From: Actinomycetota bacterium
GTDB taxonomy: Bacteria; Actinomycetota; Acidimicrobiia; Acidimicrobiales; JAJPHE01
Direction of reading: 5' to 3'
Assembly (NCBI GenBank): GCA_027315345.1
Contig: DAHUYE010000060.1
Location: forward strand, 1-64,000
Length of the DNA stretch: 64,000 nucleotides
Below, one piece after another: positions 39,638-64,000 of this stretch. Under the pieces are notes generated by a model. The model ran no database searches and was not told the DNA's origin. It worked only from the letters and a program-made list of their open reading frames with translations. Positions within the stretch are counted from its first letter, which is position 1. The number at the start of each line of letters is the position of its first letter. Made by a program: the position numbers and the translations under genes.

Positions 39638-40906
39638 TCACCAGTCGTCCCGGGTGAGAGGCATGCCGCTGCGGCCTTCGGGACCGGTCCGCACTCCCAG
39701 GATCTGATGGATGGAGATCTCGTTCTCCTCGAAGCTGACCGCCGAACCGGTCATGTAGATCTTCCACACCCGGGCCCGGGGTTCGCCCACCAGGGCCACC
39801 GCCTCGTCCCAGTTGGCTTCCAGGTTCTCCACCCACTGGCGCAGGGTCAGGGCGTAGTGCTCGCGGAGCGACTCGACGTCGCGGACCTCGAAGCCGGCCT
39901 TCTCCATGCGCAGCACGGTGTCGCCCACGTCGTGCAACTCCCCGTCCGGAAAGACGTAACGGGCGATGAAGGTGTCCTTGCTCATGGCCGCCCCCTCCGG
40001 GGTGGAGATGGCGTGATTGAGCAGACGCCCACCGGGGCGCAGCCGGCGGAAGATGTGGGCGAAGTACTCATCGGCGTTGGCCCGCCCGACGTGTTCGAAC
40101 ATGCCGATGCTGGACACGGCGTCGAAGGGCTCGTCTTCGGGTAGCTGGCGGTAGTCGCTGAGGCGCACCTCGGCCCGGTCGGCCACGCCGGCCTTCTCGA
40201 TGCGCTGGCGGGCCAATTCCCACTGGGCATGGGAGATGGTCGCCCCCAAGGCCCGGACCCGGTGGTGGCGGGCGGCATGGATCAACATCCCGCCCCAACC
40301 CGAGCCGATGTCGAGCAGGCGCTGGCCTTCGGTCAGTCCCAGCTTCCGGCAGATCAGTTCGTACTTGGCCTCCTGGGCCTCATCCAGGCCGGCGTCGGCC
40401 TTGACGAAACGGGCGCAGGAATAGGTCATGGTCGGCCCCAGGACCAGCCGGTAGAACTCGTTGGAGACGTCGTAGTGGTGGGCGATGGCAGCCGCATCGC
40501 GCCGACGGGAGTGCAGACGGCCGCTCAGTCGGGCCTCTTCGGGTGGGGGCGGCAGGGGCCGGCCCAGGACTCCGAGGCGACGGGCCGCCCGCAGGGTGGA
40601 GATCAGCACCGAGGGAGGGATCTTCCAGTCCGGCGGGGCCGCCCTGGCCACCTGCCGGAGAGCCTCGAAGGTGTCCCCCTCCACCGTCAGCCCACCGGTC
40701 ACGTAGGCCCGTCCGAAACCCAGGTCGTTGGGGCGATACAGAACTCGACGCAGAGTCTCGGGACCATCGATGGTGACGGTGGCCACCGGCTCCGAGACGC
40801 GTCCGAAGGTGCTCCCATCCCAGAACCGCACCAAGACCGACGGCTCGGGACCGAGCAGGAACCCGAACAGCGGTTGCAAGGCGGCGGCAACGGTTACTTC
40901 TCCCAA
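39638..40906 (-). CDS. cfa: Cyclopropane-fatty-acyl-phospholipid synthase family methyltransferase
   Basis: 422 aa. An N-terminal lipid-binding region (residues 1-115) is followed by AIAHHYDVSNEFYRLVLGP, TMTYSCARF with the conserved Cys, and the SAM site LLDIGSGWGGMLIHAA; EHVGRANADEYF and YVFPDGEL are family-typical. It transfers a methylene or methyl group from SAM to unsaturated acyl chains in phospholipids (cyclopropane or 10-methyl products). It starts 3 bp after the stop of the upstream membrane hydrolase gene, hence coupled to the secretion-like operon. Confidence 0.92.
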   Translation of the reverse strand: MGEVTVAAALQPLFGFLLGPEPSVLVRFWDGSTFGRVSEPVATVTIDGPETLRRVLYRPNDLGFGRAYVTGGLTVEGDTFEALRQVARAAPPDWKIPPSVLISTLRAARRLGVLGRPLPPPPEEARLSGRLHSRRRDAAAIAHHYDVSNEFYRLVLGPTMTYSCARFVKADAGLDEAQEAKYELICRKLGLTEGQRLLDIGSGWGGMLIHAARHHRVRALGATISHAQWELARQRIEKAGVADRAEVRLSDYRQLPEDEPFDAVSSIGMFEHVGRANADEYFAHIFRRLRPGGRLLNHAISTPEGAAMSKDTFIARYVFPDGELHDVGDTVLRMEKAGFEVRDVESLREHYALTLRQWVENLEANWDEAVALVGEPRARVWKIYMTGSAVSFEENEISIHQILGVRTGPEGRSGMPLTRDDW

Positions 40907-40909
40907 TCT

Positions 40910-42625
40910 CTACCCTCCGGCTAAGGCCCGGGCCGAGGTGCAACTCATGTCCCCGTTGGGCTCGATGACGGCATCCGGTCCCAGCTTCCACGCCGGGTTG
41001 GCGTTGAGAGCCAGGGGCGGCACCTGCCAGGCCGCCGAGGCCGGACGCAGGACGTGTTCCAGAATGGCCCAGCCGGCATTGGCGGGGAGAACCTTGTGCT
41101 CCAGCACGTCGATTACGACGGCGTCGGCGCCGGCGTCACCGAGGGCGCCGCTGTGGAAGGCCGGCACCACCACGGTGGGGATACCCAGTTCCGGATCCTG
41201 GGGGGCGGCCACGGCGTCGGCCACCGGTTCCACCGCCACCTGATCGATGCCCTGGACCGGGCAACTCAGCAGCGACCGGATGGCCGGCGCCTCATCCACG
41301 ATGGACTGGAACAGGGCGGTGGACGGGGAGATCCTGAACGGTGAGATGGAGCCGAGGGTATCGGTAAGCCCCTGCAGCCCGAGCCGGGCCACCACCCCCC
41401 AACCATCGGTTCCGGCCGGGGGGTAATAGGCCCGGCCCGGCGTCACCAGCGGGCTGAGGAGAACGACCTGGTCCACCGGGGCGTCGGGGTAGCGGGCCAG
41501 GAAGGTCTCGGCCACCAGGGACCCCTCGCTCACCGCCACCAGGCTGACCTTGTGGTGGTCCCGGGCGGCCAGGACATCGACCTGGGCGTCCATCTCCTGA
41601 TCCAGGGTGTCCAGGCCCGCCACCGTGTCCGAGGCCTGAAAGGCCCGGGGCCGGCCGGCAGCGTTGAGCCCGGCGTAGGAGAAGCGGACCTCATCGAAGG
41701 GACCGGGGAGCCAGGGACCGCTGGTCCCGTCCCACTTGGTGCCGAAACCAGAGGCGATCAGGACCGGGGCACCGCGGTCGGGGCGGTGCACGGTGGCGGC
41801 CTGGGCGGCGGCTACGGCCCGGGCCTGGCGGGCCCGGGCCCCGGCCACGGCAAAGCCGATCCCGGCCCCACCGACCACGATGATCAGCAGACCGGCCAGG
41901 GAGGCGGGCACCACCGGGAGGAAGCGCACCGAACGCCGTTCGGAGGTCACCGCCCCCACCACACCCCTCCAGGCCCAGGCGTTGAACAGGCCGCCCAGGA
42001 CGGCCACCGGGATGGAGAGCCGTCCCGGGCTGATCCCGCTGACCCCGGAGCAGATGGTCATGACCAGGAAGGTGAGAGCGATCCAGCCGATGGCCCGCAC
42101 CGGGACGGTGCGCCGCCACCAGTTCGGGGACACGGCCCCCGGTCCGACGAGCACGGCCACGGCCAGCACGGGCGGCACGGCGGCGAAGAACAACCAGGAC
42201 AGCGACACCACCGCCATCCCGAACAGCAGCATGACCCAGGGGGCCAGTAGCACCGCCGCCACGGCCGTGAAACTCAGGCTGTGCAGCCACGCCTTCAGGA
42301 AGCCGGGGCGCTCCCCCCTCCGCTCAATGGGCCAGGCCTCCCGCACGATGAGGGTGTCGAGACCGCTGCGGAAGATCAGCAGGGCCGCCAGCTCCAGGAC
42401 GAAGGCGGGCAGGGACTGGTGGTAGACGACCAGCCAGCGCAGGTCGTGGAACAGCCCGAAGGGGGCGGCGGCGGTGACCTGGGGAGCGAGTCCGCCGGCC
42501 CAGGTGGCGCCCAGGGCGGTGAGCAGGGCCGCCTCGGCCGTGGCCACGGCCACGCACAGGACGATGAGGCGGGGTTTCTCCCGGAAGATCAGCCCCGCCC
42601 GCCGTAGGGGGGGACCTTCGAGCAT
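40910..42625 (-). CDS. Membrane protein with C-terminal alpha/beta-hydrolase domain
   Basis: 571 aa. Six or so membrane helices (residues 15-270) precede an outer alpha/beta-hydrolase-type domain: VLIASGFGTKWDG, SYAGLNAAGRP, the nucleophile elbow LVAVSEGSLVAETF (A-x-S-x-G), VVLLSPLV and a late VIDVLEHKVLPANAG with a candidate His. The domain resembles cutinase/PE-PPE-like serine hydrolases acting on envelope lipids. The gene overlaps the coupling-protein gene by 37 bp and lies 3 bp before cfa, so it is in the same transcript. Function unknown. Confidence 0.75.
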   Translation of the reverse strand: MLEGPPLRRAGLIFREKPRLIVLCVAVATAEAALLTALGATWAGGLAPQVTAAAPFGLFHDLRWLVVYHQSLPAFVLELAALLIFRSGLDTLIVREAWPIERRGERPGFLKAWLHSLSFTAVAAVLLAPWVMLLFGMAVVSLSWLFFAAVPPVLAVAVLVGPGAVSPNWWRRTVPVRAIGWIALTFLVMTICSGVSGISPGRLSIPVAVLGGLFNAWAWRGVVGAVTSERRSVRFLPVVPASLAGLLIIVVGGAGIGFAVAGARARQARAVAAAQAATVHRPDRGAPVLIASGFGTKWDGTSGPWLPGPFDEVRFSYAGLNAAGRPRAFQASDTVAGLDTLDQEMDAQVDVLAARDHHKVSLVAVSEGSLVAETFLARYPDAPVDQVVLLSPLVTPGRAYYPPAGTDGWGVVARLGLQGLTDTLGSISPFRISPSTALFQSIVDEAPAIRSLLSCPVQGIDQVAVEPVADAVAAPQDPELGIPTVVVPAFHSGALGDAGADAVVIDVLEHKVLPANAGWAILEHVLRPASAAWQVPPLALNANPAWKLGPDAVIEPNGDMSCTSARALAGG

Positions 42626-44289
42626 GGAGGGAAATTTACCCGGGTGGGCGGCCGCCTATCCCCCGCCCGGCGGGCCATGAGGCGCGGGTCCTCGAACCAC
42701 GGGCGCAGGGCCATCTGGACCGGGGGCAAATGCCCGTAGAGGAGCAGCCCGTGGCCGGGAGCGATCCGGCGCAGGGCATCGGCCGGCGCCAGGCGGCGGT
42801 GGGCGACGGCCTCGGTGGTCGAGCGAGCCCCGTCGGGCCCGACCGTCCGGGATACCTCACTGTCGGCCGAGTCGCCCACCAGGCTGCTGAGGGCCTCCAG
42901 GGTGGCCGGGTCACCCACCCCGGACAGGAGGATCTTGGCCCGGTGGTTGTTGATGACCGAGGCGGCCCGGGCCCCGTAGCGGGCGGTGACCTGGGCCAGG
43001 TCCTGCCACACCGTCACCAGCTGGATACCCTGCCCCGCCCCGGTGGCGGCCAGGCCGTCGAGGTCCTCGAGCGGGGCGATGGCGGCCGCTTCGTCCAGGA
43101 CTATCAGCAGGGGCCGGGTCAGCGGCCCACCCGTGGCGGCGCAGCGCTCGTAGACGGTCCGGACCACCTGGTCGACCAGGGCGGTGAAGAGCGGCCGGAG
43201 CCGGCGCTGCTCATGGGCGGGGGCGCACAGGAACAGGGAGTGGGCGCCGCCGTCGAGGAGCGGACCGGGGTCGATGACGGCGCCGGCCTCGGCGGCGGAG
43301 AGATCGGGTTCGGCAAAAGGATCCAGCACGGTCTCGGTGGTGGTGAAGATCGAACTGCGGGCCCGCTCCTCCCGGCCGAAGCTGGCCGTGGCCGCCAGCA
43401 GGGCCGGCTGGTGACCGAGGCCGGCCAGCACGTCGAGCACCTCTTCGGTCTCCTGGGTATCGACCCAGCGGACCACGTCCGCCATGGTCCGGTCCGAGAC
43501 CGCCGCCGCCAGGAGCAGCGGGGCCAGCAACTTGGCGCTGGTGGCGTACCAGAATTCCGAATCGGCCGAGCCGGGTTGGCCGGAGCGGGCCGCCTCGATC
43601 AGCGCCGACGCCGTCCGCCTGGCCCCGGCCCAGGTCCTGGCTCCAGCCAGGGGGGACCAGGCGTCGGCGGGCAGACCGGTGCAGCCGGCCGGGTCGTAGA
43701 TCCAGACCCGCCCGGCCCGGCGGCGGGCGGCCAGGGTGTCGCGCACCAGGTCGGTCTTGACGCTGGCGGCCAGGACCGGCCCGTCCCACTCCAACAGGGC
43801 CGGGACGGCCAGCCCGCTCGTCTTCATGGTCTGGGTCGGTCCCACCACCAGCACCGACTGGCGGGCCTCGGCGGCCAGCAGCACCCCCCGGCCCCGGCCC
43901 CAGCGCCCGAGCACCAGCCGGCCCGGCTCCGGTCCGGGGACGACCAGGGCCCGGAGCTGGGTCCGGGTGGCCCAGCTGGCCCCGCCGGGATCGAAGGCGG
44001 CCCGGCGCCGAAGCCTCCGGGGCCGGGTCCGGCCCTGTCGTCGCGGTAGCCACGGGCGGGGGCGGGGGCGGGGGCGGGGGCGGCGGCGCTGGGACCGGAC
44101 CCGGCCCGGGCGTGGCGTCGCCTTCCACGCCGACCAGGCCAGCCACCCCGCGACTCCCGCCACCCCGAGGGCGACGGCCAGCCCATGGTGGCCCCGGGCC
44201 CACACGACCAACTCGACCAGAGCGGCGCCGGTCATGAGCTCACCGGCCCCGGAGGGGGAGGCGGAGCCGGCCGGGCGCTTCGGGCTCAT
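42589..44289 (-). CDS. Type IV coupling protein (VirD4/TraG-type ATPase)
   Basis: 566 aa from ATG 44289 (ATGA overlap with the VirB4-like stop). One or two N-terminal membrane helices, an Arg/Pro-rich stretch (residues 55-90), then the ATPase: Walker A VLVVGPTQTMKTSGLAVPAL, in which Met replaces the usual Gly before Lys, ASVKTDLVRDT, Walker B LLIVLDEAAAIAPLEDLDGL and QLVTVWQDLAQVTARYG. Coupling proteins bring substrates to a type IV channel. The usual relaxase partner is not in view. Confidence 0.88.
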   Translation of the reverse strand: MSPKRPAGSASPSGAGELMTGAALVELVVWARGHHGLAVALGVAGVAGWLAWSAWKATPRPGRVRSQRRRPRPRPRPRPWLPRRQGRTRPRRLRRRAAFDPGGASWATRTQLRALVVPGPEPGRLVLGRWGRGRGVLLAAEARQSVLVVGPTQTMKTSGLAVPALLEWDGPVLAASVKTDLVRDTLAARRRAGRVWIYDPAGCTGLPADAWSPLAGARTWAGARRTASALIEAARSGQPGSADSEFWYATSAKLLAPLLLAAAVSDRTMADVVRWVDTQETEEVLDVLAGLGHQPALLAATASFGREERARSSIFTTTETVLDPFAEPDLSAAEAGAVIDPGPLLDGGAHSLFLCAPAHEQRRLRPLFTALVDQVVRTVYERCAATGGPLTRPLLIVLDEAAAIAPLEDLDGLAATGAGQGIQLVTVWQDLAQVTARYGARAASVINNHRAKILLSGVGDPATLEALSSLVGDSADSEVSRTVGPDGARSTTEAVAHRRLAPADALRRIAPGHGLLLYGHLPPVQMALRPWFEDPRLMARRAGDRRPPTRVNFPPCSKVPPYGGRG

Positions 44290-45548
44290 GGGCGCTCTGG
44301 GCCGGGCCGGCCGGCCATGCGGGCATCGGTGTCGACCAGCCTGGCCTCCAGGTCGGACAGGCGGTGCTCGACCAGGAAGGAGCGCCGGCCGACCTTCCAC
44401 AGACCCACGCCCCGCCCGAGCCGGGGGAGCAGATCGACCTCGGTGCCGGACAGCCCCAGCAGTTCCTGGGAGGCGGCGGCCTCCCCGTGGGACTGGGCGT
44501 AGACCACCCGGGTCTCCGAGTCGGACAGCAGGCCCTCGGCCAGGAGGACCTGCTCGGAGCCGGCCGGCCCCGCCGCCCGCAGATCGGACAGGCGGTGCAG
44601 CACGGCCAGGTTGGCCACGCCGTAGGCCCGGGAGAGTTTCCAGCACGCCTGAAGCCAGCGGGCCACGCCCAGGTTGGACAGGATGGCCCAGGCCTCGTCC
44701 ACCACCAGCAGCCGCGGCCGAGGCGTGGACCGGTCCAGGGTGGCCTGGACCCAGGCGGTGGCGCAGGCCATGAGCACCGGCAGCGCCGCCGACCCGTAGA
44801 CGGCGGACAGGTCGAGGACCACCAGGGGTCCGTCGACCCGCAGGCCCCGGGTGGTGGGGCCGTCGAACATCCCCCGGAGGTCCCCGGTCACCAGCCTTCT
44901 CAGCTCCAGGGCGACCTCCCGGCCGTCCTCGGACAGGGTGCGGGCGTCACTGGCCAGGGCCCCGGCCCGGGCCTCGTCCGGGCGCAGGAGGGCATCCACC
45001 ACATGGGCCACCAGGGGCCGGCCGCCGTTGCGCTGGGCCGCCTCGGTCAGGGCCACGTCCAGGCAGGCCCGCTCCCGGGGGTTGAGGGTCCGACCCAGGC
45101 AGGCCTCGGCCAGGGCGGCCAGGAGGGCCGAACGGCGGTCATCGGGCCGGGCGGCCGTCATGGAGGCGCCCTCCAGCGGGTTCAGGCGCAGCTTTCCCCC
45201 CGGGGCCAGCGTCAGCGGCTCTACCCCCCAGGCCCGGGCCAGCGGGCCGTACTCCCCTTTGGGATCGATGACCCAGGCCTGGGCTCCGAGGAGGGACTGG
45301 CGCCATAGGTAGGTCTTGACCAACGAGCTCTTGCCCCGGCCGATCTGGCCCACCACCACCATGTTGGGGTTGGTCAACACGCCGGCGGCATAGAGGTCGA
45401 AGGGGTCGTAACAGAAGGAGCCCCCCAGCAGATCCCGGCCGACGTACGGGCCGGTCGCCCCCAGGACGGGCTCAGCCATGAACGGGAACAGAGCACCGAC
45501 GTGGGCGCTGGTGGCCCGGTGGGCCGGGGGCAGGGACAGGCCGGTCAT
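44286..45548 (-). CDS. VirB4/TraE-type ATPase (C-terminal motor domain)
   Basis: 420 aa. Walker A is VVVGQIGRGKSSLVKTYL, followed by AWVIDPKGEYGPLA and Walker B RLLVVDEAWAILSN; LAVLHRLSDL and SDSETRVVYAQS complete the VirB4/HerA-like motor. The N-terminal VirB4 domain is missing and appears to be supplied by the next gene upstream (SCO6880-type). ATG 45548 overlaps that gene's stop by ATGA. It energises pilin or substrate movement at the inner membrane. Confidence 0.88.
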   Translation of the reverse strand: MTGLSLPPAHRATSAHVGALFPFMAEPVLGATGPYVGRDLLGGSFCYDPFDLYAAGVLTNPNMVVVGQIGRGKSSLVKTYLWRQSLLGAQAWVIDPKGEYGPLARAWGVEPLTLAPGGKLRLNPLEGASMTAARPDDRRSALLAALAEACLGRTLNPRERACLDVALTEAAQRNGGRPLVAHVVDALLRPDEARAGALASDARTLSEDGREVALELRRLVTGDLRGMFDGPTTRGLRVDGPLVVLDLSAVYGSAALPVLMACATAWVQATLDRSTPRPRLLVVDEAWAILSNLGVARWLQACWKLSRAYGVANLAVLHRLSDLRAAGPAGSEQVLLAEGLLSDSETRVVYAQSHGEAAASQELLGLSGTEVDLLPRLGRGVGLWKVGRRSFLVEHRLSDLEARLVDTDARMAGRPGPERP

Positions 45549-46975
45549 CGCAGTCCCCGGCCCATGGGCAAGGTGAAGGTGAGGGCCTCTTCCTGCTGGC
45601 CGTACAGGCGGCGCAGGTCCAGGCGAGACTGGGCCGCGGCCCGTTCCACCTCCGAGCAGGACCGCTCCAGGGATGAAAGGTCCGTCCCGGTCACGGTGAT
45701 GTAACCGCTGAAGCGGATGTCGGCGTGGCCGTCGGCCAGCTCGGCCTCCCGCCGGGCCATCCCCTCGGCCTGACGCTGGCGGCGGGCGGTGGCCATGAAG
45801 CCGCCCCGGCGGCGCAGTTCCTCATCGGCGGCGGCCCCGGTGCGGACCGATTCGACCTCCCGGGCCGCCCGCTTGGGTCCGACCGGCTCCATGGTCACCG
45901 ACACCACCCGCACGGCCGGGACCATGAGGAGCAACGGGACCAGAAAGTCGGGACCGACCTCGGTGCGGGGCCACTCCGCCACCCAGTAGGTGGCGTGCCA
46001 GGCCCCGTCGGTTCGCACCGCCGACCAGGTCGACTCCACCGCCACCGGCCACGGGGTTCGCCAGTGACCGGTCCCCCCGTGGAAGCCCGCCGCCAGGGCC
46101 GCCCCCAGGCCCACCCCGCTCAGGGTCCGGCTCACGTCGATGTCGGCGGCCCGCAGGCCCGTCTCCAGCATGGCCAGCTCGGCCGCCACCGACTCGAGGA
46201 GAGCGACCCGTCCCCGGCCCGAACCGTCCCGCCGGCGCCGGAGGCGGCGGGCCGACACGGACAGGACCACCAGGGTCTCGTGCCGGGGGGTAAGAGGCCC
46301 GGCCCGGCCGATCAGCTCGGCGTAGGACCGGGCCGCTTCGGGCGGGGCATCGGGGTCCAGCCGTTCGGCCATGGATTCCTGGAGCCCGTCCGCATCCCCG
46401 GGATGGACCCGCTCGACCCACTGCAGGCGGTGCACGACCGAGCCCTCCCGGGCCAGGCCGGCCAGCACAGCCGCCCAGCCCGCCAACCGGCGCTGTTTGT
46501 CCTCGGGATCCAGCAGGGCGAAACCGGCCCCGGACGCCTCCAGGACGGCCGAGGCGGTCCCGTCCCGGCCGTCGATGACCACCCCCATCCGGGCCCGAGC
46601 CGATCCGTGCTCGACCAGACGGCAGCCCCGTAAGGCCGGGGGAGGCTCCGGAGCAGGATCGCCCCGGCTATGAGCCCCGCCCCGCCAGCGCCGGGACCCG
46701 GACAGACGGTGGAGCCCCCAACTCCAGATGACGGGTGCCCACTCCTCGCTGGTCCGGCCCGACACCGGCACGAAAGCGGCGGCCAGACCCACGGCCACGG
46801 CGCCGGCGGCCACCACCATGCCCACGGCCATGGGCAGGACGCGGAGGGCACCCACCGCCCCCACCAGGCCGGCCCCGACGCAGAGAACCTGACCGCCGCC
46901 CAGCCCGGCCACCAGGCCCTTCCTCTCCAGCGGGCCGAACCGGTAGCGGCCCCCCGGGCTACCGGCCTCGCTCAA
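45545..46975 (-). CDS. SCO6880-type conjugation protein (PrgI/VirB3 plus VirB4 N-domain)
   Basis: 476 aa from TTG 46975, whose TTGA overlaps the TrbL-like stop; the first residues SEAGSPGGRYRFGPLERKG match the SCO6880 family. Two membrane helices follow (residues about 25-70), then a soluble domain ending ADIRFSGYITVTGTDLSSLE and QQEEALTFTLPMGRGL. Members accompany VirB4-type ATPases in actinobacterial integrative elements and look like a VirB3-VirB4 N-terminal fusion. The frame remains open upstream, but that is TrbL shadow. Confidence 0.82.
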   Translation of the reverse strand: MSEAGSPGGRYRFGPLERKGLVAGLGGGQVLCVGAGLVGAVGALRVLPMAVGMVVAAGAVAVGLAAAFVPVSGRTSEEWAPVIWSWGLHRLSGSRRWRGGAHSRGDPAPEPPPALRGCRLVEHGSARARMGVVIDGRDGTASAVLEASGAGFALLDPEDKQRRLAGWAAVLAGLAREGSVVHRLQWVERVHPGDADGLQESMAERLDPDAPPEAARSYAELIGRAGPLTPRHETLVVLSVSARRLRRRRDGSGRGRVALLESVAAELAMLETGLRAADIDVSRTLSGVGLGAALAAGFHGGTGHWRTPWPVAVESTWSAVRTDGAWHATYWVAEWPRTEVGPDFLVPLLLMVPAVRVVSVTMEPVGPKRAAREVESVRTGAAADEELRRRGGFMATARRQRQAEGMARREAELADGHADIRFSGYITVTGTDLSSLERSCSEVERAAAQSRLDLRRLYGQQEEALTFTLPMGRGLR

Positions 46976-48009
46976 GCGGGGTCCCCCTCCGCCTCGGCCG
47001 GGAAGTCGAGACCGTCCAGCGGGCCGGACCGGGTCGGGGCGGTCAGGAAACGGACCGGGTCGGAGGCCACCACCTCGGTCAGACCGGCGCCGGCTCCGGC
47101 TCCCGCCGCGACCCCGCCCAGACTCCAGGCCGTCGAGGCGGCGGCCGCGACCCCCCGCCGGCCGGTGCCGGCCAGATGGGAGACAGCCGAGAACTCCGCC
47201 AGCGGGACGAGGCGCAGGAGCGCCATCGGGGTCAGGGTCGCCAGCAGCAACATGGCCGTGCCCGTGACGATGGCGCTGAAGCCGGCTCCGGAACCGACCG
47301 CAGCGGCCCCCAGGCCGAGGACGGCCACGATCACGAACTTGGACAGGATCAGGGCCACCAGCACCTCGGCCAGGCGCCGGGCGATGGAGGCGGCCGCCGG
47401 CCAGACCATGGTGGCCAGGGCCAGGGGTAGGAACAGGGTGGCGGCGTCGATGGCCACCGACCGGACGATCAACTCCAGCCAGATCAGGAAACCGCCTACC
47501 ACGACCACCAGGGCGATGAAAAAGCCCATGAACACGGGGGCGTTGGTGGCCAGTGAGCCCAGGCCGGTTCCCATGGCGGTGACGAACCGGGCCACGTCGG
47601 CGCCCGACCCGCCCGCCACCAGATCCGAGAGGTGGTCGGCCACGGCCACGCCCAGCTGCACCAGCTCCACCGCGCTCAGGGTCAGGATGACGGCCAGGGG
47701 AAGCTGGATGACGGCGGCCCGCACCAGCAGGCCGGGGTCCTGGCGCGCCACGGCCTGAATGGCGCTGGCAGCCAGGAAGATCAGCAGGACGGCGGTGCCG
47801 ATGTCGGTCATGACCGCGTAGCGCCCGGCGAAGAAAGCCGCCCCCACCAGCGGCCCGGTGGTAACCGACAGGACGGCGCCGACCTGGTCCATGAGCCACC
47901 GGGCCGAATCGGCCACCGAAGCGGACATGGCCGACAGGACGGCCGAGGCTCCCACCCCGGCGGCCTGGGAGACCAGTCCGTTCAGGCCGGGGATGCCCGC
48001 CAGGATCAC
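46972..48009 (-). CDS. TrbL/VirB6-like channel protein
   Basis: 345 aa from GTG 48009 (GTGA overlap with the pilin-like stop). Six to seven membrane helices, a central GFFIALVVVVGGFLIWLELI, a conserved-looking AIDAATLFLPLALATMVWPA, and a cytosolic Gly/Ala-rich tail. The layout matches TrbL/VirB6 inner-membrane channel proteins of type IV systems, and its neighbours support this. Confidence 0.82.
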   Translation of the reverse strand: MILAGIPGLNGLVSQAAGVGASAVLSAMSASVADSARWLMDQVGAVLSVTTGPLVGAAFFAGRYAVMTDIGTAVLLIFLAASAIQAVARQDPGLLVRAAVIQLPLAVILTLSAVELVQLGVAVADHLSDLVAGGSGADVARFVTAMGTGLGSLATNAPVFMGFFIALVVVVGGFLIWLELIVRSVAIDAATLFLPLALATMVWPAAASIARRLAEVLVALILSKFVIVAVLGLGAAAVGSGAGFSAIVTGTAMLLLATLTPMALLRLVPLAEFSAVSHLAGTGRRGVAAAASTAWSLGGVAAGAGAGAGLTEVVASDPVRFLTAPTRSGPLDGLDFPAEAEGDPA

Positions 48010-48305
48010 TTGATGCTGCTCCCGGCCTGGAAGAACCACTGGATCAGGGAGGGAGCCGCTCCGACGATGAGGGCAGCCAGGCCCGAGACCAGCACGGCCC
48101 GCCGGCCGCTGACGGCCTGGTTGAAGTTCTGGCTGTGCGAGCCGATGGCCCACGAGGCCGCCCCGATGAGCACCCCGACCAGAGCGATGGCCAGGGCCCA
48201 CCACTCCAGGCCCTGGGTCAGATGCATGAGTTCGCTGCCGCCCGGCAGGGCGGTGGGATCGGGGGTCGTACCCCCGCTGAAGATGGCCACGGTCCCTAGT
48301 TCCAT
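48006..48305 (-). CDS. VirB2/TrbC-like pilin-type protein
   Basis: 99 aa with two hydrophobic helices (residues 33-53 and 70-90) joined by a short polar loop containing GSHSQNFNQAVSGRRAV. A polar start (MELGTVAIFSGGTTPDPTAL) lies outside. The two-helix hairpin plus the basic loop is the VirB2/TrbC pilin pattern, also seen in actinobacterial conjugation loci. It is the first gene of the minus-strand operon. Confidence 0.78.
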   Translation of the reverse strand: MELGTVAIFSGGTTPDPTALPGGSELMHLTQGLEWWALAIALVGVLIGAASWAIGSHSQNFNQAVSGRRAVLVSGLAALIVGAAPSLIQWFFQAGSSIK

Positions 48306-48355
48306 CGGCGCCTCCCGCTCCGTGCCCGGGCGCCCAGTGCGCCCTGGCCCGTCTC

Positions 48356-48384
48356 AGCGTAGAGAACTTTTCATGTTGTTTCAA
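48356..48384 (-). promoter_or_regulatory. Candidate promoter of the type IV-like operon
   Basis: On the minus strand TTGAAA (48384-48379) and TACGCT (48361-48356) are 17 bp apart; the start point would be about 45 bp from the pilin ATG. The surrounding 40 bp are strikingly AT-rich for this window. The -10 box is weak (T, A and final T conserved). The same region must serve the divergent transglycosylase gene. Confidence 0.4.
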
Positions 48385-48413
48385 TAATTTTGATGGTTTA
48401 ACGTCGTCGACTC

Positions 48414-49043
48414 GTGGTGTACACGGTCGGAGTCAGGGCGGTGGCGGGGCTGCTGGCGCTGGCCGGCTTCTTCCTGGCCGCTGCGGCTCTGGCCCTGGGG
48501 GCCGGGCTGGCTTGGGCGGGCGGGGAAGCCGTCCCGGCCGGAGCCGACCCGCCGCCCCCCACCGCCGGCGGTCCGACGGGAGGCCTGGGGTCCATCCCGA
48601 CGGCCATGCTCGGCTTGTACGGGGCGGCCGCGCCGGGCACCTGCGCCGGGTTGCCCTGGCAGGTGCTGGCCGCCATCGGGACGGTGGAGTCGGACAACGG
48701 AACGTCCCAGGCGCCGGGCGTGCAATCGGGAGCCAACTTCGCCGGGGCCGAGGGGGTGATGCAGTTCGAACCGGCCACCTTCGCCGAGTACTCCCGACCG
48801 GTGCCCGCCGGCGGGGCCGATCCGCCCAGCCCCTATGACGCCACCGATGCCGTCTGGGCGGCGGCCCGGCTCCTCTGCGCCGACGGCGCCCGGTCCGGTG
48901 ACCTGCCGGGCGCCATCTACGCCTACAACCACTCCGCCGCCTACGTCACCCAGGTCTGGGAGCTGGCCGTCGCCTACGGCATGCCGGTGACGGATCAGTC
49001 CTTTAGAGGTCTCCAAGCCTTAGCCTGGTCGGGGTGGATCTGA
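48414..49043 (+). CDS. Lytic transglycosylase (VirB1-like)
   Basis: 209 aa from GTG 48414. A signal anchor (VAGLLALAGFFLAAAALALG) is followed by a Pro/Gly linker and an SLT-type domain: WQVLAAIGTVESDNGTSQAP with the catalytic Glu, GAEGVMQFEPATFAEY, and AIYAYNHSAAYVTQVWELA. It opens peptidoglycan for envelope machines. It faces away from the pilin gene and overlaps the sensor kinase gene by 10 bp. Confidence 0.85.
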   Translation: MVYTVGVRAVAGLLALAGFFLAAAALALGAGLAWAGGEAVPAGADPPPPTAGGPTGGLGSIPTAMLGLYGAAAPGTCAGLPWQVLAAIGTVESDNGTSQAPGVQSGANFAGAEGVMQFEPATFAEYSRPVPAGGADPPSPYDATDAVWAAARLLCADGARSGDLPGAIYAYNHSAAYVTQVWELAVAYGMPVTDQSFRGLQALAWSGWI

Positions 49044-50356
49044 CCGGGGGAACCACCCCTTATGTGGCCGGCATGGCCGGAGCCGGATTCATCACCCTCA
49101 CCACCCTCACCGTGTGGCACCGGTCCAGACGGGCCCTGCGCCGGCGGCTGGCGGCGCTGACCATGCGCCTCGGCTATGACACCTCCGACGCCGAGTCGGG
49201 CGGGACCGAACGGGTGCTGGCCCGGGCCGAGCGGGCGGCCGAGTCCCTGCTCATCAGCCACAGCGACGCCGAACGCCGGGCCGCCCGGCTGGCCGGGGCT
49301 CTCGACGTCATGCCCCTGGGGGTGATCCTGGCCGATGACCTGGGCGCCATCGAATACCGCAACGTCCTGGCCGAGTCCATGGCCGGCGGCCACGGGGACC
49401 TGCTCGTACAGCGGGCCCTGGAGTCCCTGCTGGAACGGGCCCTGCGTTCCGATCAGCCCGAGGACGAGGAGGTCGACCTCTTCGGCCCACCCCGGCGCCA
49501 CTACGTACTCCGGGGCCGACCCATCGATGACGGCCACCGGGCCGTGGGGGTTCTGGCCACGGTGGAGGACGAGACCGAGCGCCGCCGGATGGACGAGGTC
49601 CGCCGCGACTTCATCGCCAACGCCAGCCACGAGCTCCGCTCCCCGGTCGGGGCCTTGGCCGTGCTGGCCGAGATGCTGACCGAGGAGACGGCCGTGACGG
49701 TGATGCGGCGCCTGGCGGGCCGGCTGGGAGCCGAAGCCGACCGGGTGGTCCGGGCTCTCGAGGACGTCATCGAGCTCTCCCGGCTGGAGGCCGAGGCCAA
49801 CCCGGTCCGCCAAGCCGTCTCCATCACGTCGCTCGTGACCGAGGTCGTCTCCCGGGTCACGCCCATGGCCGACACCCTGGGGGTGACCGTCGTGCCCCCC
49901 ACCCTGCGCCGCCGTCTGGCCGTGGTCGGAGAACGTCGCCAGCTCATCGCCGCCCTGTTCAATCTGGTCGAGAACGCCGTCAAGTATTCGCCCCGGGGCA
50001 CCTCGGTCGAGATGGGCGCCGAGGTGGCTGAGGACCGGGTGCACTTGAGCGTCACCGATCACGGCATTGGAATCCCGGCCCGCGATATCGACCGGATCTT
50101 CGAGCGCTTCTACCGGGTCCAGCGCGACGCCGACCCGGGCGGCAGCGGCCTGGGCCTCTCCATTGTCCGCCACGTCGCCTCCGCCCACGCCGGATCGGTC
50201 ACCGTCACCTCCCAGGAGGGCGCCGGCTCCCGGTTCGTCCTCGACCTGCCGCTGGCCCTCGACCAACCCCGGGCGGTAGAGGCCACCGGGTCCATCCCGA
50301 TCATTCCCGGCGCCAGCGCCGGTCCCGAGCCCGGCGGGCTGCGTTCAGCCGGCTGA
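49034..50356 (+). CDS. Sensor histidine kinase, PhoR/SenX3-like
   Basis: 440 aa from GTG 49034. One N-terminal membrane helix (about 10-28), a PAS-like domain (residues 90-185, MPLGVILADDLGAIEYRN), the H-box FIANASHELRSPVGAL, N-box NLVENAVKYSPRG, G1 VTDHGIGIPARD, F-box IFERFYRV and G2 GGSGLGLSIV. The closest group is SenX3/PhoR. No response regulator gene is beside it. The gene overlaps the transglycosylase gene at its start and serS (convergent) by 12 bp at its end. Confidence 0.92.
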   Translation: MDLTGGTTPYVAGMAGAGFITLTTLTVWHRSRRALRRRLAALTMRLGYDTSDAESGGTERVLARAERAAESLLISHSDAERRAARLAGALDVMPLGVILADDLGAIEYRNVLAESMAGGHGDLLVQRALESLLERALRSDQPEDEEVDLFGPPRRHYVLRGRPIDDGHRAVGVLATVEDETERRRMDEVRRDFIANASHELRSPVGALAVLAEMLTEETAVTVMRRLAGRLGAEADRVVRALEDVIELSRLEAEANPVRQAVSITSLVTEVVSRVTPMADTLGVTVVPPTLRRRLAVVGERRQLIAALFNLVENAVKYSPRGTSVEMGAEVAEDRVHLSVTDHGIGIPARDIDRIFERFYRVQRDADPGGSGLGLSIVRHVASAHAGSVTVTSQEGAGSRFVLDLPLALDQPRAVEATGSIPIIPGASAGPEPGGLRSAG

Positions 50357-60097: not shown

Positions 60098-60170
60098 GGT
60101 CGGGTAGCTCAGTTGGTAGAGCACGCGCCTGAAAAGCGCGGGGTCACCGGATCGACGCCGGTCCCGACCA
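60098..60170 (+). tRNA. tRNA-Phe (GAA), integration site
   Basis: Acceptor GGTCGGG/CCCGACC, D arm GCTC...GAGC, anticodon loop CTGAAAA (GAA). The T loop reads ATCGACG instead of TTCGA-type, a variant I have no measure for. The integrase gene sits 215 bp from its 3' end in the opposite orientation, so the 3' part of this tRNA is the probable attachment site. Confidence 0.95.
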
Positions 60171-60231
60171 CCGAGAAAGTCCTGGTCAGGCGGGGTGCGC
60201 GAATTGAAAAACCGGGGTTGGCCCGGGTTTC

Positions 60232-60261
60232 GTGCCCCACCCGTGCCCCACCGTGCCCCAC
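60232..60261. repeat. Three direct GTGCCCCAC repeats, possible integrase arm sites
   Basis: GTGCCCCAC occurs at 60232-60240, 60243-60251 and 60253-60261, spacing 11 and 10 bp, i.e. about one helical turn. They lie between the tRNA-Phe gene and the integrase gene, where arm-type sites for the integrase N-terminal domain or excisionase sites are expected. Confidence 0.5.
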
Positions 60262-60385
60262 GCTGGTTCAAGAGCGGTGTCCGAGCGTCGTTTCCTCATC
60301 GCCTTTTCTCACCCTGTGTGGGCGCGTCCGTCGCCCAAAAACAGCCTGATGTTGGGGCTGACGCGGGCACGCCAGTGTGGGAAGC

Positions 60386-61549
60386 TCAGACTCCGTCGGC
60401 CTCGGCGGCTGGGCGGATGGGAATGATGGGAGCCAGGGCCTCGGTCAGCTGGTCCAGCAGATCAGCGATACGCCGCTCGCGCTCTTCCGCGGCGTGCTGA
60501 TAGATCAACGACGCTCTCGGGCTGGCATGGCCGAGGCGAGCCATCCGCTCCTTGGTGCTGGCGCCGGTCTGGGCCGCCAGTGTCCCCGCCGTGTGCCTCA
60601 TGTCGTGAAAGCGCAGACCGCCCAGGCCGGTCTTGGCAGTCGCTGGCTCCCACGTTCTCTGTCGAAAGTTGTTGCGATCCAGAGGTAGGCCGGTACCCGT
60701 CGTGAAGACGTAGGCCTCCAGTCCTTTGGGCGTGTAGGCGCGCACGTGATGGCGCAGCTCGTCGCCCAGCCGTTGGCCTACCGCGACCCGACGAAGGCCG
60801 GCCTCGGTCTTGGGCTCGTCCTCGATCACCTCACCCGAGGCCAGTCGAATGCGCTTGCGCCGGACATGGATCCAGCCGCCGGCCAGGTCGAGGTCCCGGC
60901 GGCGCAAAGCGAAGAGCTCTCCCTGGCGCAGACCGGTCAGCCCGGCGGTGAGGACCAGGGCCCGATAGCGGGGGTCGATGGCGTCGGCCAACTGGTAGAG
61001 CTGACCCAGGTTGATGAAACGCTGCTCGGAATGGCGCTCCAGGCCGCCGCGATCGATCCGGCAGGGGTTCTTGGCCAGGCGGTCGTCCTTGACGGCCTGG
61101 CCCAGGATTTGGCGGAGGCGCACGTAGGCCTTGGCCGCCACCGATCGGGTCCGAGCCTTGACCAGGGAGGCGTGCCAGACCCGCACCAGTTCTGAGGTGA
61201 TCTCGCCTATGGCGAGCTCGCCAAGGGCGGGAACGCCTGGGTCCACGGCCGGAAGGATGTGGAGGTTGAGCTGGCTGGCGTAGATCTCCCGGGTCCGCGG
61301 CGCCAGCATGCTCATGCCGTTCAGCCACGCCTGGGCGTAGTCGTCCGGGCGGACCTGGCCGGCCCGGGGGTCGACCCAAATCCCGCGGCGCATTTCGGTT
61401 TCCAGCTGAGACAGCCAGGCGTTGGCGTCAGCCCTGGTCCGGAAGGTCAGCGGGGCGGTGATTCTCTCCCCTGTCGGCAGGTGGTAGCGCACCTGCCAAT
61501 GCCCCGACGGCAACCGCCGGAGAGCGCCGAAGTCCCTCTTGCCGGCCAT
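60386..61549 (-). CDS. Tyrosine-type site-specific integrase
   Basis: 387 aa. An AP2-like arm-binding start (GHWQVRYHLPTGERITAPLT), a SAM-like core-binding domain (residues 65-165), and a catalytic domain with Arg208 (LTGLRQGELFALRRRDLD), His315/Arg318 (FHDMRHTAGTLA), His341 (LGHAS) and Tyr350 (ASLIYQHA). All catalytic residues are present, so it can be active. Next to it is the excisionase gene, 12 bp upstream, and tRNA-Phe on the other side. Confidence 0.94.
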   Translation of the reverse strand: MAGKRDFGALRRLPSGHWQVRYHLPTGERITAPLTFRTRADANAWLSQLETEMRRGIWVDPRAGQVRPDDYAQAWLNGMSMLAPRTREIYASQLNLHILPAVDPGVPALGELAIGEITSELVRVWHASLVKARTRSVAAKAYVRLRQILGQAVKDDRLAKNPCRIDRGGLERHSEQRFINLGQLYQLADAIDPRYRALVLTAGLTGLRQGELFALRRRDLDLAGGWIHVRRKRIRLASGEVIEDEPKTEAGLRRVAVGQRLGDELRHHVRAYTPKGLEAYVFTTGTGLPLDRNNFRQRTWEPATAKTGLGGLRFHDMRHTAGTLAAQTGASTKERMARLGHASPRASLIYQHAAEERERRIADLLDQLTEALAPIIPIRPAAEADGV

Positions 61550-61561
61550 CTCACCTCACCT

Positions 61562-61948
61562 TCATCCCCAGCGGGACCCTGACTCCGCGCTGTGACTCTC
61601 CGCCGCTGGTCGGTTCGCCTCAGGCCGATCTGTCATCGACTGGAGAGATCCTGCGGAGCGGCCTTCCTCCGGTCCGGGGCCGGGAGCCACCCGCACCCGC
61701 CGGGAGCTGGCTGGGCGCCCCCGGGCTCTGGGTGATCCACGCTGGCACAGGCAGATCATCCCGGGGCTGACCCGGGTCCGGCTGAAGAACTCGCGCAGAT
61801 CGGCGGGCTGGAACAACAGGAAGCGCCCGACCCGGTGGTAAGGAATGACGCGCTCCTCGACCGCCCGGCGCATCCATCGCACCGTGACGCCCAGCATGGC
61901 CGCGGCGGCCTCGATTCGCACCGGCGCTTCCTCCCTGCCGTCACTCAC
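61562..61948 (-). CDS. Excisionase-type helix-turn-helix protein
   Basis: 128 aa from GTG 61948. Residues 10-55 form a MerR-like HTH (VRIEAAAAMLGVTVRWMRRA, YHRVGRFLLFQPADLREFF), the rest is a basic Arg/Pro/Ser tail without clear fold. Position directly upstream of the integrase, in the same direction, identifies it as a recombination directionality factor. The long tail is unusual. Confidence 0.78.
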   Translation of the reverse strand: MSDGREEAPVRIEAAAAMLGVTVRWMRRAVEERVIPYHRVGRFLLFQPADLREFFSRTRVSPGMICLCQRGSPRARGRPASSRRVRVAPGPGPEEGRSAGSLQSMTDRPEANRPAAESHSAESGSRWG

Positions 61949-62132
61949 AGCCGTGCCCCAGCCGGTCTCGTCCGTGCCGGGCCCCTTCGCTAGGCCCGCG
62001 GCGCAGCTTCTCCACGTTCACCTCCTGGGCCAGCCGAATCTGGCCATCACTCCCTATCCGGACCTCCAGACCCCCTTCCGTCAAAAAATTGCTCCGGATT
62101 TTTTTCGGGCTGGAGTCCCCAAGCCTCATCAA
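61941..62132 (-). CDS. Possible 63-aa protein coupled to the excisionase gene
   Basis: The frame begins at 62132 (MMRLGDSSPKKIRSNFLTEG), crosses an AT-rich patch with runs of A and T, and ends at 61941, overlapping the excisionase start by 8 bp (TGTGAGTGA). Contains EVRIGSDGQIRLAQEV, which looks protein-like. No strong ribosome site. It may be a small element gene or chance. Confidence 0.3.
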   Translation of the reverse strand: MMRLGDSSPKKIRSNFLTEGGLEVRIGSDGQIRLAQEVNVEKLRRGPSEGARHGRDRLGHGCE

Positions 62133-62162
62133 GGCACCCCACTCCCGCCCGCTTCACCAGGC

Positions 62163-62196
62163 TTGTGGGCTACCACGCCCCGGCCTCAGGCCGGGG
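62163..62196 (+). repeat. Element-associated hairpin repeat, copy A
   Basis: TTGTGGGC (62163-62170) is followed after 7 bases by a perfect 8-bp hairpin CCCCGGCC-TCA-GGCCGGGG (62178-62196). A second copy at 63659-63682 has TTGTGGGC joined directly to CCCCGGCCTCAGGCCG. The two flank the ssb remnant and the phosphotransferase gene. Confidence 0.75.
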
Positions 62197-62204
62197 CTGT
62201 CCCG

Positions 62205-62654
62205 ATGGTGGCGGAGGCCGACCGGAGCGGGCGGGCCCGTCAAGGCCGCCTGTCGGCGTCCCTCCGGGACCGGCTGCGCCGGGCCTTGACTGACCCTCCT
62301 CCAAGCGCCGGTGTCGACCAGGCCACCACCAGCTTCGGGATCGCCGTCAACCGCCGCTGGCTCAACCGGGACGACAACACCTGGGAGGAGTCCACCAGCT
62401 TCTTCGACGTGGTGGCCTGGGCCGAGCTGGTCGAGAACGCCACGCAGTCCCTGGCCCGGGGCAACCGGGTCACCGTCACCGGCCGCCTGGAGCAGCGCTC
62501 CTGGGAGACCCCGGAAGGCCAGCGCCGCTCCAAGGTGGAGATCAACGCCTCCGACATCGCCACCAGCCTGGCCTGGGCCACGGCCAAGGTCACCAAGAAC
62601 GAGCGTCAGGCGCCCGAGGCGGCCGCCGTCAACGAGGACGAGCCGGCTTTCTAG
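62205..62654 (+). pseudogene. ssb: 5'-truncated single-stranded DNA-binding protein gene
   Basis: From about residue 38 of this frame the product is a standard SSB: ATTSFGIAVNRRWLNRDDNT, ESTSFFDVVAWAELVENATQ, GNRVTVTGRLEQRSWETPEG and the acidic tip EDEPAF. What should be the first OB-fold strands (VTLVGNLTDDPELRFT) is replaced by an unrelated RLSASLRDRLRRALTDPPPS sequence; only LTD and PSAG hint at the lost part. The 5' end is probably a deletion or rearrangement scar close to hairpin copy A. A start at 62205 could still express a fragment. Confidence 0.65.
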
Positions 62655-62773
62655 GACCACCTGAGCCAGGGGCCGCCACCACCCGGTGGCGGCCCTTCTG
62701 GCGCCTCTCAGTAGCCTCAACCCGCGGGTGGCATGGCGGGCGATCGGCCGAACCCGGAGGTGGGGGCGGGGCA

Positions 62774-63628
62774 GTGGATTCCGGTACTGGGGCGAGCGAG
62801 CTGAGCCGACGGGCGACCGAGCTGTTCAGGCCGCACCTGTCCGTCGAGGAGACGCTGGTGGCCCATCGCTCCCGCCTCGTCTGGCGGGCCCGCCTCGATG
62901 GCGACCTGGTGGCCCTCAAGGCCTTCACCGAGCCCTACCGGGCGGCCGCCGAGGCGATGGCCATGCGGGCCGCCGCCGACGGGGGCGTCGGAGTACCACC
63001 GGTGCTCGGCGAGTGGAGGGTCGATGGTTGCGCCGTCCTCACCCTCGGCTGGGTGGAGGGTTCCCCGCTCGGGTCGCAGACGCAGGGCTGGGTCAGGGCC
63101 GGTGAGCAGTTGGCCCGCCTCCACCGCCTGCCGGTCCCACCGGGCCTGCCAACCGCCAGTGGATGGGAAGGCGACTGGGACTCGGACCTGGTCCGACAAG
63201 TACCGCAGGAATGCGCCCGGGCGGTGAACCTCGGGCTGTTGTCGCATTCCCAGGTGGATCACGTGACGAGCACGCTGGGGCCGGCTCTGGCCGCGCTCGA
63301 ACCGGCAGGCATCGCCTTCCTACACGGGGACATGCAGCCCGAACATGTCATCCTCACCACCGCCGGCGGGGTGAGCTTCATCGACTGGGGAGACGCCGGC
63401 AGCGGTGACCCCTTGTGGGATCTGGCCGTGCTGGTCAATGACAACAACCTTGACCACCTCGAAGACGTCCTGGCCGGCTACCAACCAGAACCCCAGCTCC
63501 TGGCCCACCTTCGGGCCAACCTCGACCATTTCCGGGCTCTGCGATACCTCCAAGAGGCGACCTGGTTGGCCGAGCGGTCCTTCGACCCCTCCCAGTCGTT
63601 GGAAGGCCTGTTCGGGCTGCTCGGTTAG
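62774..63628 (+). CDS. Aminoglycoside-phosphotransferase-fold protein
   Basis: 284 aa from GTG 62774. Kinase-like fold: LVALKAFTEPYRAAAEAMAM (ATP-lysine), HGDMQPEHVILTT (Brenner motif H184-G185-D186) and SFIDWGDAGSGDPLWDLAVL with Asp204. The metal-binding Asn expected four residues after the HGD motif is His191, so activity is doubtful or altered. Such proteins phosphorylate antibiotics, sugars or choline. It lies between two copies of a hairpin repeat, next to the ssb remnant. Confidence 0.8.
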   Translation: MDSGTGASELSRRATELFRPHLSVEETLVAHRSRLVWRARLDGDLVALKAFTEPYRAAAEAMAMRAAADGGVGVPPVLGEWRVDGCAVLTLGWVEGSPLGSQTQGWVRAGEQLARLHRLPVPPGLPTASGWEGDWDSDLVRQVPQECARAVNLGLLSHSQVDHVTSTLGPALAALEPAGIAFLHGDMQPEHVILTTAGGVSFIDWGDAGSGDPLWDLAVLVNDNNLDHLEDVLAGYQPEPQLLAHLRANLDHFRALRYLQEATWLAERSFDPSQSLEGLFGLLG

Positions 63629-63650
63629 GGCCCGGCCGGGTCGCCGGGCC
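63629..63650 (+). terminator. Hairpin after the phosphotransferase gene
   Basis: GGCCCGGC (63629-63636) pairs with GCCGGGCC (63643-63650), 8 bp, loop CGGGTC, directly after the stop codon. No T-run. Confidence 0.5.
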
Positions 63651-63658
63651 AGGCCGGA

Positions 63659-63682
63659 TTGTGGGCCCCCGGCCTCAGGCCG
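63659..63682 (+). repeat. Element-associated hairpin repeat, copy B
   Basis: TTGTGGGC plus CCCCGGCCTCAGGCCG, identical in both blocks to copy A at 62163-62196 but lacking its 7-bp middle; the stem here is shortened to CGGCC-TCA-GGCCG. About 1.5 kb separates the copies. Confidence 0.7.
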
Positions 63683-63841
63683 CGCCCGGCTCGAGGGGCC
63701 AGCCGGGCCGATCCTGAGCGCGCCCAGAGACCCAAAAACCCACCCCCCTGCCCCACACACCCTTGCATTGAAATGATGTCGGCGAACGCCCGGACAGCGG
63801 ACCCGCACCGGGCGGGAGTCCCAGGTCACGCGGATTATTTT

Positions 63842-64000
63842 TCAGGGTTCTGCGAACAGGGTTCGGCGCCAGATGGTGGCCAGGGTCTGGGCGGCCTCGG
63901 GTATGGGAAGGCCCGGGCCTCTGCCGAAGGTCTCGAGGAGGTACCGCTCGTTCATCCAGACCAGTGCGATGGCCATCTGGGCCGGGTCAGTGAGTTGGCA
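63842..64000 (-). CDS. TetR-family regulator, C-terminal part
   Basis: The gene enters from the right edge; 52 codons are visible before the stop at 63844-63842. The segment DPAQMAIALVWMNERYLLET, then FGRGPGLPIPEAAQTLATIW, is the dimerisation helix pattern seen at the end of many TetR regulators. The DNA-binding part lies outside. Target unknown. Confidence 0.65.
   Translation of the reverse strand, partial: CQLTDPAQMAIALVWMNERYLLETFGRGPGLPIPEAAQTLATIWRRTLFAEP

Follow-up and report, generated by a model that had tools for sequence, protein, structure and literature searches.

What does a conjugation-type channel do in a chromosome when no relaxase lies beside it? This question is raised by a stretch of 64,000 nt (hereafter the window) of contig DAHUYE010000060.1, which is 173 kb long in full and belongs to an Acidimicrobiales genome labelled G000 (the host). 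At 48305-42589, the minus strand of the window carries a compact type IV secretion system (T4SS) core, made up of DUF6112 pilin-like, TrbL/VirB6, SCO6880, VirB4 and VirD4 genes. The initial annotation, made from the letters of the window alone, suggested that this relaxase-free core may be a domesticated T4SS with a substrate other than plasmid DNA. From the comparisons below we infer a different function: with a probability of about 0.62, the core forms the channel half of a conjugation-type DNA-transfer system that is resident in the chromosome, is inherited vertically, is laid out at two unlinked fixed loci and probably exports chromosomal DNA.

The secretion core and its fixed chromosomal site

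The five core genes and the two genes divergent from them are as follows.

48006-48305, minus strand: DUF6112 small membrane protein, pilin-like (VirB2 position), first gene of the operon (Pfam PF19607, E 2.8e-8)
46972-48009, minus strand: TrbL/VirB6-like polytopic protein, SCO6881 family-like (NCBIfam NF047967, E 1.3e-8, under the curated cut-off of the family)
45545-46975, minus strand: SCO6880 family protein (NF042935, E 1.1e-85, above the cut-off)
44286-45548, minus strand: VirB4 ATPase, C-terminal motor domain only, 420 amino acids (weak Pfam AAA_10 match; profile match to PDB 4ag5, E 6e-29)
42589-44289, minus strand: VirD4/TraG coupling ATPase (T4SS-DNA_transf/TraG, PF02534, E 5e-33)
48414-49043, plus strand: SLT-domain transglycosylase, VirB1-like (PF01464, E 4e-6)
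49034-50356, plus strand: PhoR/PnpS-like sensor histidine kinase, the marker of the fixed site (profile matches and synteny)

The gene positions and strands of the initial annotation were all borne out, together with the junctions (GTGA at 48006-48009, TTGA at 46972-46975, ATGA at 45545-45548 and 44286-44289), the 10-bp overlap of transglycosylase and kinase (49034-49043), and the flanking serS and heme A genes.

Nearly all core loci that are covered far enough have the DUF6112 gene, and its product is predicted with moderate confidence (pLDDT 72) to form a helical hairpin, for which a PDB search gave no significant match. The TrbL/VirB6-like gene is syntenic in relatives. In VirB4, the Walker A (GQIGRGKS) and Walker B (VVDEAW) motifs are invariant or nearly so across 12 aligned sequences, and in the profile search the protein matches the motor-domain structure 4ag5 along its whole length. 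The AlphaFold model of the SCO6880 protein (pLDDT 86) was matched by Foldseek to R388 TrwK/VirB4 chains (8rtb, 8rtd, 7o41-7o43; E 6e-10 to 2e-7, TM about 0.5). Because this model matches the N-terminal part of VirB4 in the R388 inner membrane complex, we read SCO6880 as the N-terminal half of a VirB4 that has been split, and its N-terminal helices as PrgI/VirB3-like. That is, SCO6880 and VirB4 together look like one VirB4 divided into two proteins: the SCO6880 model aligns with the body of R388 VirB4, while the division itself sets the present system apart from R388 TrwK/VirB4. In addition, the SCO6880 family protein (45545-46975) shows a weak likeness to EccE of type VII secretion (Pfam E 6e-4, NCBIfam E 3e-6). 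PADLOC and PHROGs returned only generic HerA/FtsK-type matches for VirB4 and only generic lysozyme-type matches for the transglycosylase.

We have compared the window genes by tblastn with 80 GTDB contigs, from Acidimicrobiales or less precisely labelled actinobacterial metagenome-assembled genomes (MAGs), and with about 80 regions of further relatives, a comparison of gene order that the initial annotation had proposed. One arrangement is observed throughout: ctaA-ctaB-thioredoxin-ABC-serS-(Fur/response regulator)-kinase, divergent from pilin-TrbL-SCO6880-VirB4-VirD4. Kinase and pilin genes are transcribed directly away from each other at 80 distinct VirB4 loci (median gap about 335 bp between the matched regions), where the order recurs without an adjoining integrase, and SerS is also in view at 55 of these 80. 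The confirmed core genomes number 53 and come from 16 families of the order Acidimicrobiales. This recurrence of the five-gene order in tens of genomes is far beyond chance. The transglycosylase stands at the core site in some families only (L030, L033, L120, L133, L155, L165, L180), and the response regulator that is the usual partner of the kinase is located elsewhere in the host genome (G000:C54, 70% identity).

The core is an old, vertically inherited chromosomal resident and not a recent mobile insertion, since its site is fixed, the VirB4 and SerS trees agree, VirB4 evolves at a low ratio of non-synonymous to synonymous substitution rates (dN/dS), and plasmid relatives are distant. The two trees correlate with a Mantel rho of 0.73 (shuffled maximum 0.36) and have 19 of 51 splits in common (shuffled maximum 2), and the dN/dS of VirB4 is about 0.05-0.17. 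All plasmid VirB4s are less than 60% identical to the core VirB4, with the best among the matches listed at no more than 46.5%; beyond the order, the rest of the class gives few strong VirB4 matches. Site constancy and congruence with the SerS tree thus sustain the earlier idea of a domesticated T4SS, in the form of a fixed, vertically inherited system and not of an integrative and conjugative element (ICE) or plasmid insertion.

In the core loci compared from 16 families, no integrase, att site or replication genes adjoin the core. The initial annotation had stated that no relaxase, integrase or att-like feature is near. This holds beside the core, with one caveat: about 12 kb away, on the far side of serS and ctaAB, a tyrosine integrase gene (60386-61549) adjoins tRNA-Phe (60098-60172). 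The core occupies its usual site without this tRNA-Phe integrase element. The end of the window (60098-64000), with the tRNA-Phe, the integrase on the minus strand, and SSB and APH-like genes, is probably the edge of an integrated element extending beyond the window.

A conserved relaxase at a second locus

No TrwC relaxase is present anywhere on the 173-kb contig. The host genome as a whole has 19 TrwC matches on many contigs, most of them with mobile-element context, and is unusually rich in MobF relaxases. One MobF/TrwC gene is found in a single conserved neighbourhood in the host (C7) and in G001, G002, G030, G040 and G010, with the order LPG-synthase-like gene (PF03706), small open reading frame (ORF), two WYL/PafBC-type regulators, TrwC. 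In the host the locus is the following.

G000:C7, about 130.7-134.3 kb: fixed-site MobF/TrwC locus, with genes for the relaxase and for another VirD4-type ATPase, next to two PafBC-like WYL genes

The TrwC gene is often accompanied by a convergent gene for a VirD4-like ATPase of 442 amino acids (VirD4') with the canonical Walker A GPPRSGKT. Several families also have an AMP-binding, luciferase-like or cyclase gene there. Among 40 further core-bearing genomes, nearly all have the WYL genes ahead of TrwC, and many also have the LPG-synthase-like gene and the small ORF; the fixed arrangement has been seen at about 50 relaxase loci of core-bearing genomes. In one family (f16, which includes Acidiferrimicrobium), the block of LPG-synthase-like gene, small ORF and TrwC is directly divergent from the T4SS core, joining both loci. 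The catalytic HxHxH histidines of TrwC are kept in 51 of 51 sequences and the catalytic tyrosine in all 44 aligned rows that cover the position, with a dN/dS of about 0.08-0.4. PafBC-like WYL regulators control the DNA-damage response in mycobacteria. Such genes usually precede the relaxase (e.g., L217 10984-12854), and DNA transfer might conceivably be under damage-linked control.

The two loci are connected by three lines on different data: co-occurrence, co-evolution and a shared box. In a survey of 298 genomes of the order, TrwC is present in 52 of the 53 confirmed fixed-site genomes vs 34 of the 172 genomes that have no VirB4 match at all (Fisher 1e-26, uncorrected for phylogeny), and the sole core genome that lacks it, G066, is 85% complete. 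VirB4 and the unlinked TrwC co-evolve: their distances in 46 genomes correlate with a rho of 0.905 (shuffled maximum 0.36), and 19 of 43 splits are in common (shuffled maximum 2). The third line is a tandem box ahead of the pilin gene and of TrwC, which in the window is placed as follows.

48369-48385, minus strand: tandem promoter box ATTGAAACAACATGAAA, CATGAAA unit with a 10-bp period (12/14 match), about 64 bp upstream of the operon start

At a match of at least 12/14, the CATGAAA tandem box occurs in 14 of 49 TrwC and 32 of 91 pilin upstream regions, vs 2 of 501 other genes on the contigs of the relaxase loci and none in the shuffled control, and it is strand-specific. At the fixed-site relaxase of the host, the copy of the box, GATGAAAAACTATTAAAACTCATGATA (11/14), extends into the start codon.

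The interval between kinase and pilin gene shows no enrichment of PhoP/RegX3-type GTTCAC boxes. Another, non-palindromic element, CAGCATGRCAGG, is found within 2 mismatches in 45 of 71 kinase-pilin intervals (e.g., L068, L079, L114), always in one orientation (0 reversed). It is absent from the window and not systematically present at the relaxase locus, and is a possible promoter, operator or nick-site candidate.

Overall, "relaxase-free" holds locally only. The argument from a missing relaxase to a non-DNA substrate is not supported, as a catalytically intact fixed-site MobF relaxase co-occurs and co-evolves with the core, shares its box and adjoins it in f16.

A proposed mechanism and its alternatives

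Judged by its sequences, the system would be classed as conjugative, of a monoderm, FATA-like type with MobF: it comprises a VirB4-type ATPase, a VirD4 and a relaxase with intact catalytic residues, the TrwC gene lying outside the core cluster except in f16. In the mechanism we propose, the window locus would build an inner-membrane T4SS from the pilin-like protein, VirB6, the split VirB4 and VirD4, and the second locus (G000:C7) would supply the MobF/TrwC relaxase and the second VirD4-type ATPase. Both loci may be turned on at the CATGAAA boxes, either by a common regulator or through a common type of promoter. The relaxase, as its conserved catalytic residues suggest, would nick chromosomal DNA at some site and stay covalently on the strand; VirD4, by homology, would pass the relaxase-DNA complex to the VirB4-driven channel, and single-stranded chromosomal DNA would then be passed to a partner cell or released into the medium.

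On the other hand, several observations weigh against such a transfer system. No oriT (origin of transfer) or nick site has been identified, and no systematic oriT search was made. The Walker A of VirD4 often lacks its last glycine: it reads GPTQTMKT in the window, with the final Gly replaced, and GPTQ[ST]xKT across the relatives of the fixed system, the last-Gly position being Q, H, R, Y, K or F elsewhere. GPPRSGKT is mostly retained by the VirD4' of the relaxase locus, but in the Walker A survey no compensation of the decayed P-loop of the core VirD4 by VirD4' was seen. In many lineages the fixed-site TrwC is relaxase-only (about 390-490 amino acids; L224, L235, L237, L255-L259), having kept its catalytic histidines and lost the helicase domain, and therefore canonical transfer may be impaired; in the family f23 the relaxases are short and divergent. 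Moreover, the box is strong in only about one third of the loci, the 19 TrwC matches of the host include many mobile MobF relaxases that could use the channel, and the data are computational and come mostly from MAGs.

Some of these points suit the alternative that survives best, though we consider it unlikely: a domesticated complex that has ceased to move DNA between cells and serves cell-internal chromosome handling or division, in which the relaxase is an internal partner or a coincidental fixed neighbour. Its precedent is the Streptomyces operon cmdABCDEF (SCO4126-4131), in which CmdB is VirB4-like and CmdC and CmdD resemble SCO6880 and SCO6881; it is required for sporulation and chromosome segregation and has no effect on transfer of an SLP2-derived plasmid (PMC2782261). 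Like the present core, it is chromosomal, conserved across its group (the genus) and combines a VirB4-like ATPase with SCO6880/SCO6881-type partners, a likeness drawn from description and NCBIfam families. Among chromosomal operons of this T4SS type that are not mobile, it is the closest precedent. Helicase loss and P-loop decay would also fit a non-canonical role. Cmd, however, consists of five membrane proteins and one ATPase according to the gene list of that paper, whereas here VirD4, nearly always next to VirB4, and the unlinked relaxase belong to the system. Also speaking against this reading is the relaxase with conserved catalytic residues, which is found together with the channel, evolves along with it and has the same promoter box.

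A further alternative, also improbable, is that the T4SS took over the role of ComEC in DNA exchange or uptake, possibly importing DNA instead of exporting it. It draws on the distribution of ComEC (PF03772), which is found in 0 of 53 confirmed core genomes and 0 of 6 checked f16 genomes vs 138 of 172 genomes without VirB4. This absence may be one clade-level loss instead of repeated replacement, and so the mutual exclusion is a lead, not a proof of replacement. There is a precedent in ComB, a T4SS for DNA uptake in Helicobacter, yet ComB works together with ComEC, which is absent in 53 of 53 core genomes, and a nicking relaxase points to export. DprA was common with and without the core across the 298 genomes and missing from several core genomes; this lack of specificity leaves no support for the uptake role with DprA (32256) that the initial annotation had considered.

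A form of the annotation's main idea, a relaxase-free domesticated protein-secretion apparatus in which DNA is not involved, is now quite improbable. It is true that no relaxase, integrase or accessory transfer genes stand beside the core, and that the chromosomes of Patescibacteria encode, across the lineage and outside mobile elements, a monoderm-type T4SS whose role is non-conjugative (PMC12102498). But most T4SS clusters in Patescibacteria are without a relaxase, whereas here the relaxase is a conserved partner and the system does not count as relaxase-free. The near-perfect co-occurrence with TrwC, the co-evolution, the shared box and the direct adjacency in f16 argue against protein secretion, and the neighbourhood of the core holds no conserved effector-like gene.

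Two genes downstream of VirD4 had led to the suggestion that the last genes of the channel operon modify envelope lipids.

40910-42625, minus strand: membrane alpha/beta-hydrolase-like protein of 571 amino acids (sub-threshold Pfam match only)
39638-40906, minus strand: cyclopropane-fatty-acid synthase (cfa, CMAS; PF02353, E 1e-94)

The hydrolase gene overlaps VirD4 by 37 bp (42589-42625), is 3 bp from cfa (40907-40909), and stays beside VirD4 in G000, G001 and G002. Among the loci examined, these three genomes, all of family f1, are the only ones with this linkage; G002 has no cfa after the hydrolase, and in G001 the contig ends within the hydrolase gene. The hydrolase is therefore a family-specific passenger outside the conserved core and cfa a neighbour with unconserved adjacency, so that the lipid reading describes a local arrangement, and a joint machine of channel, hydrolase and cfa has very little chance of being real. 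Just as improbable is an ordinary ICE or its remnant sitting here by chance: all parts derive from conjugation machines and mobile relatives with TrwC exist (G000:C48 included), but one site across 16 families without integrase or att at the core, purifying selection and the distance of plasmid VirB4s contradict it, and we have ruled out the mobile-element (ICE or plasmid) reading by site constancy and tree agreement.

Relation to known systems and meaning

Actinobacterial conjugative elements of the SCO6880/SCO6881 type (G000:C48; T4SS-type ICEs, PMC3218068) contain the same pilin-like, VirB6, SCO6880, VirB4 and VirD4 set together with a MobF relaxase. Such a second, mobile-type T4SS is present in the host itself (G000:C48:40000-72346, L050/L051), with a TrwC relaxase-helicase, a T2SSE ATPase, a LysM protein of 1044 amino acids and an ArdC-like antirestriction gene. 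In those elements, the relaxase gene is clustered with the channel genes and with accessory ones (T2SSE ATPase, LysM protein, ArdC-like gene), whereas the fixed system is compact and chromosomal across 16 families, with its relaxase at a second fixed site.

In function, the nearest analogue is the gonococcal genetic island of Neisseria gonorrhoeae, a chromosomal T4SS with a relaxase that secretes single-stranded chromosomal DNA (PMC8716806, PMC12857230). It differs in being a genetic island and in having a MobH relaxase and another T4SS class, and its users transform naturally, while the core-bearing lineage is without ComEC. In the literature searched, we found no earlier description of a T4SS in Acidimicrobiales, or of a T4SS and a relaxase that are both chromosomal and inherited vertically as a pair. 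None of the compared systems brings together vertical inheritance, a conserved relaxase and two co-regulated loci at fixed places.

Conjugation normally belongs to plasmids and ICEs. If the DNA-transfer reading is true, the cell itself would here own a conjugation system, with T4SS and relaxase both chromosomal, vertical through at least 16 families and apparently controlled together; both are kept under purifying selection even in genomes as small as 1.5 Mb. One can go further and suppose that the whole lineage, i.e., many families of Acidimicrobiales, has lost ComEC competence and keeps a chromosomal conjugation machine at two co-regulated loci for its own DNA exchange, a species-owned sex apparatus and no selfish element. 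We put this forward tentatively, with the odds somewhat against it. A cell-owned conjugation system would provide a recombination mechanism for a large, mostly uncultured lineage without ComEC, and the long-standing question of whether conjugation is domesticated by cells to exchange their own DNA becomes testable. The case also calls for caution in annotation, as a T4SS cluster without a relaxase need not be a relaxase-free system. Overall, soil and water actinobacteria of many families have a plasmid-type channel fixed in their chromosomes, and the result may be a permanent apparatus with which they send out or swap DNA.

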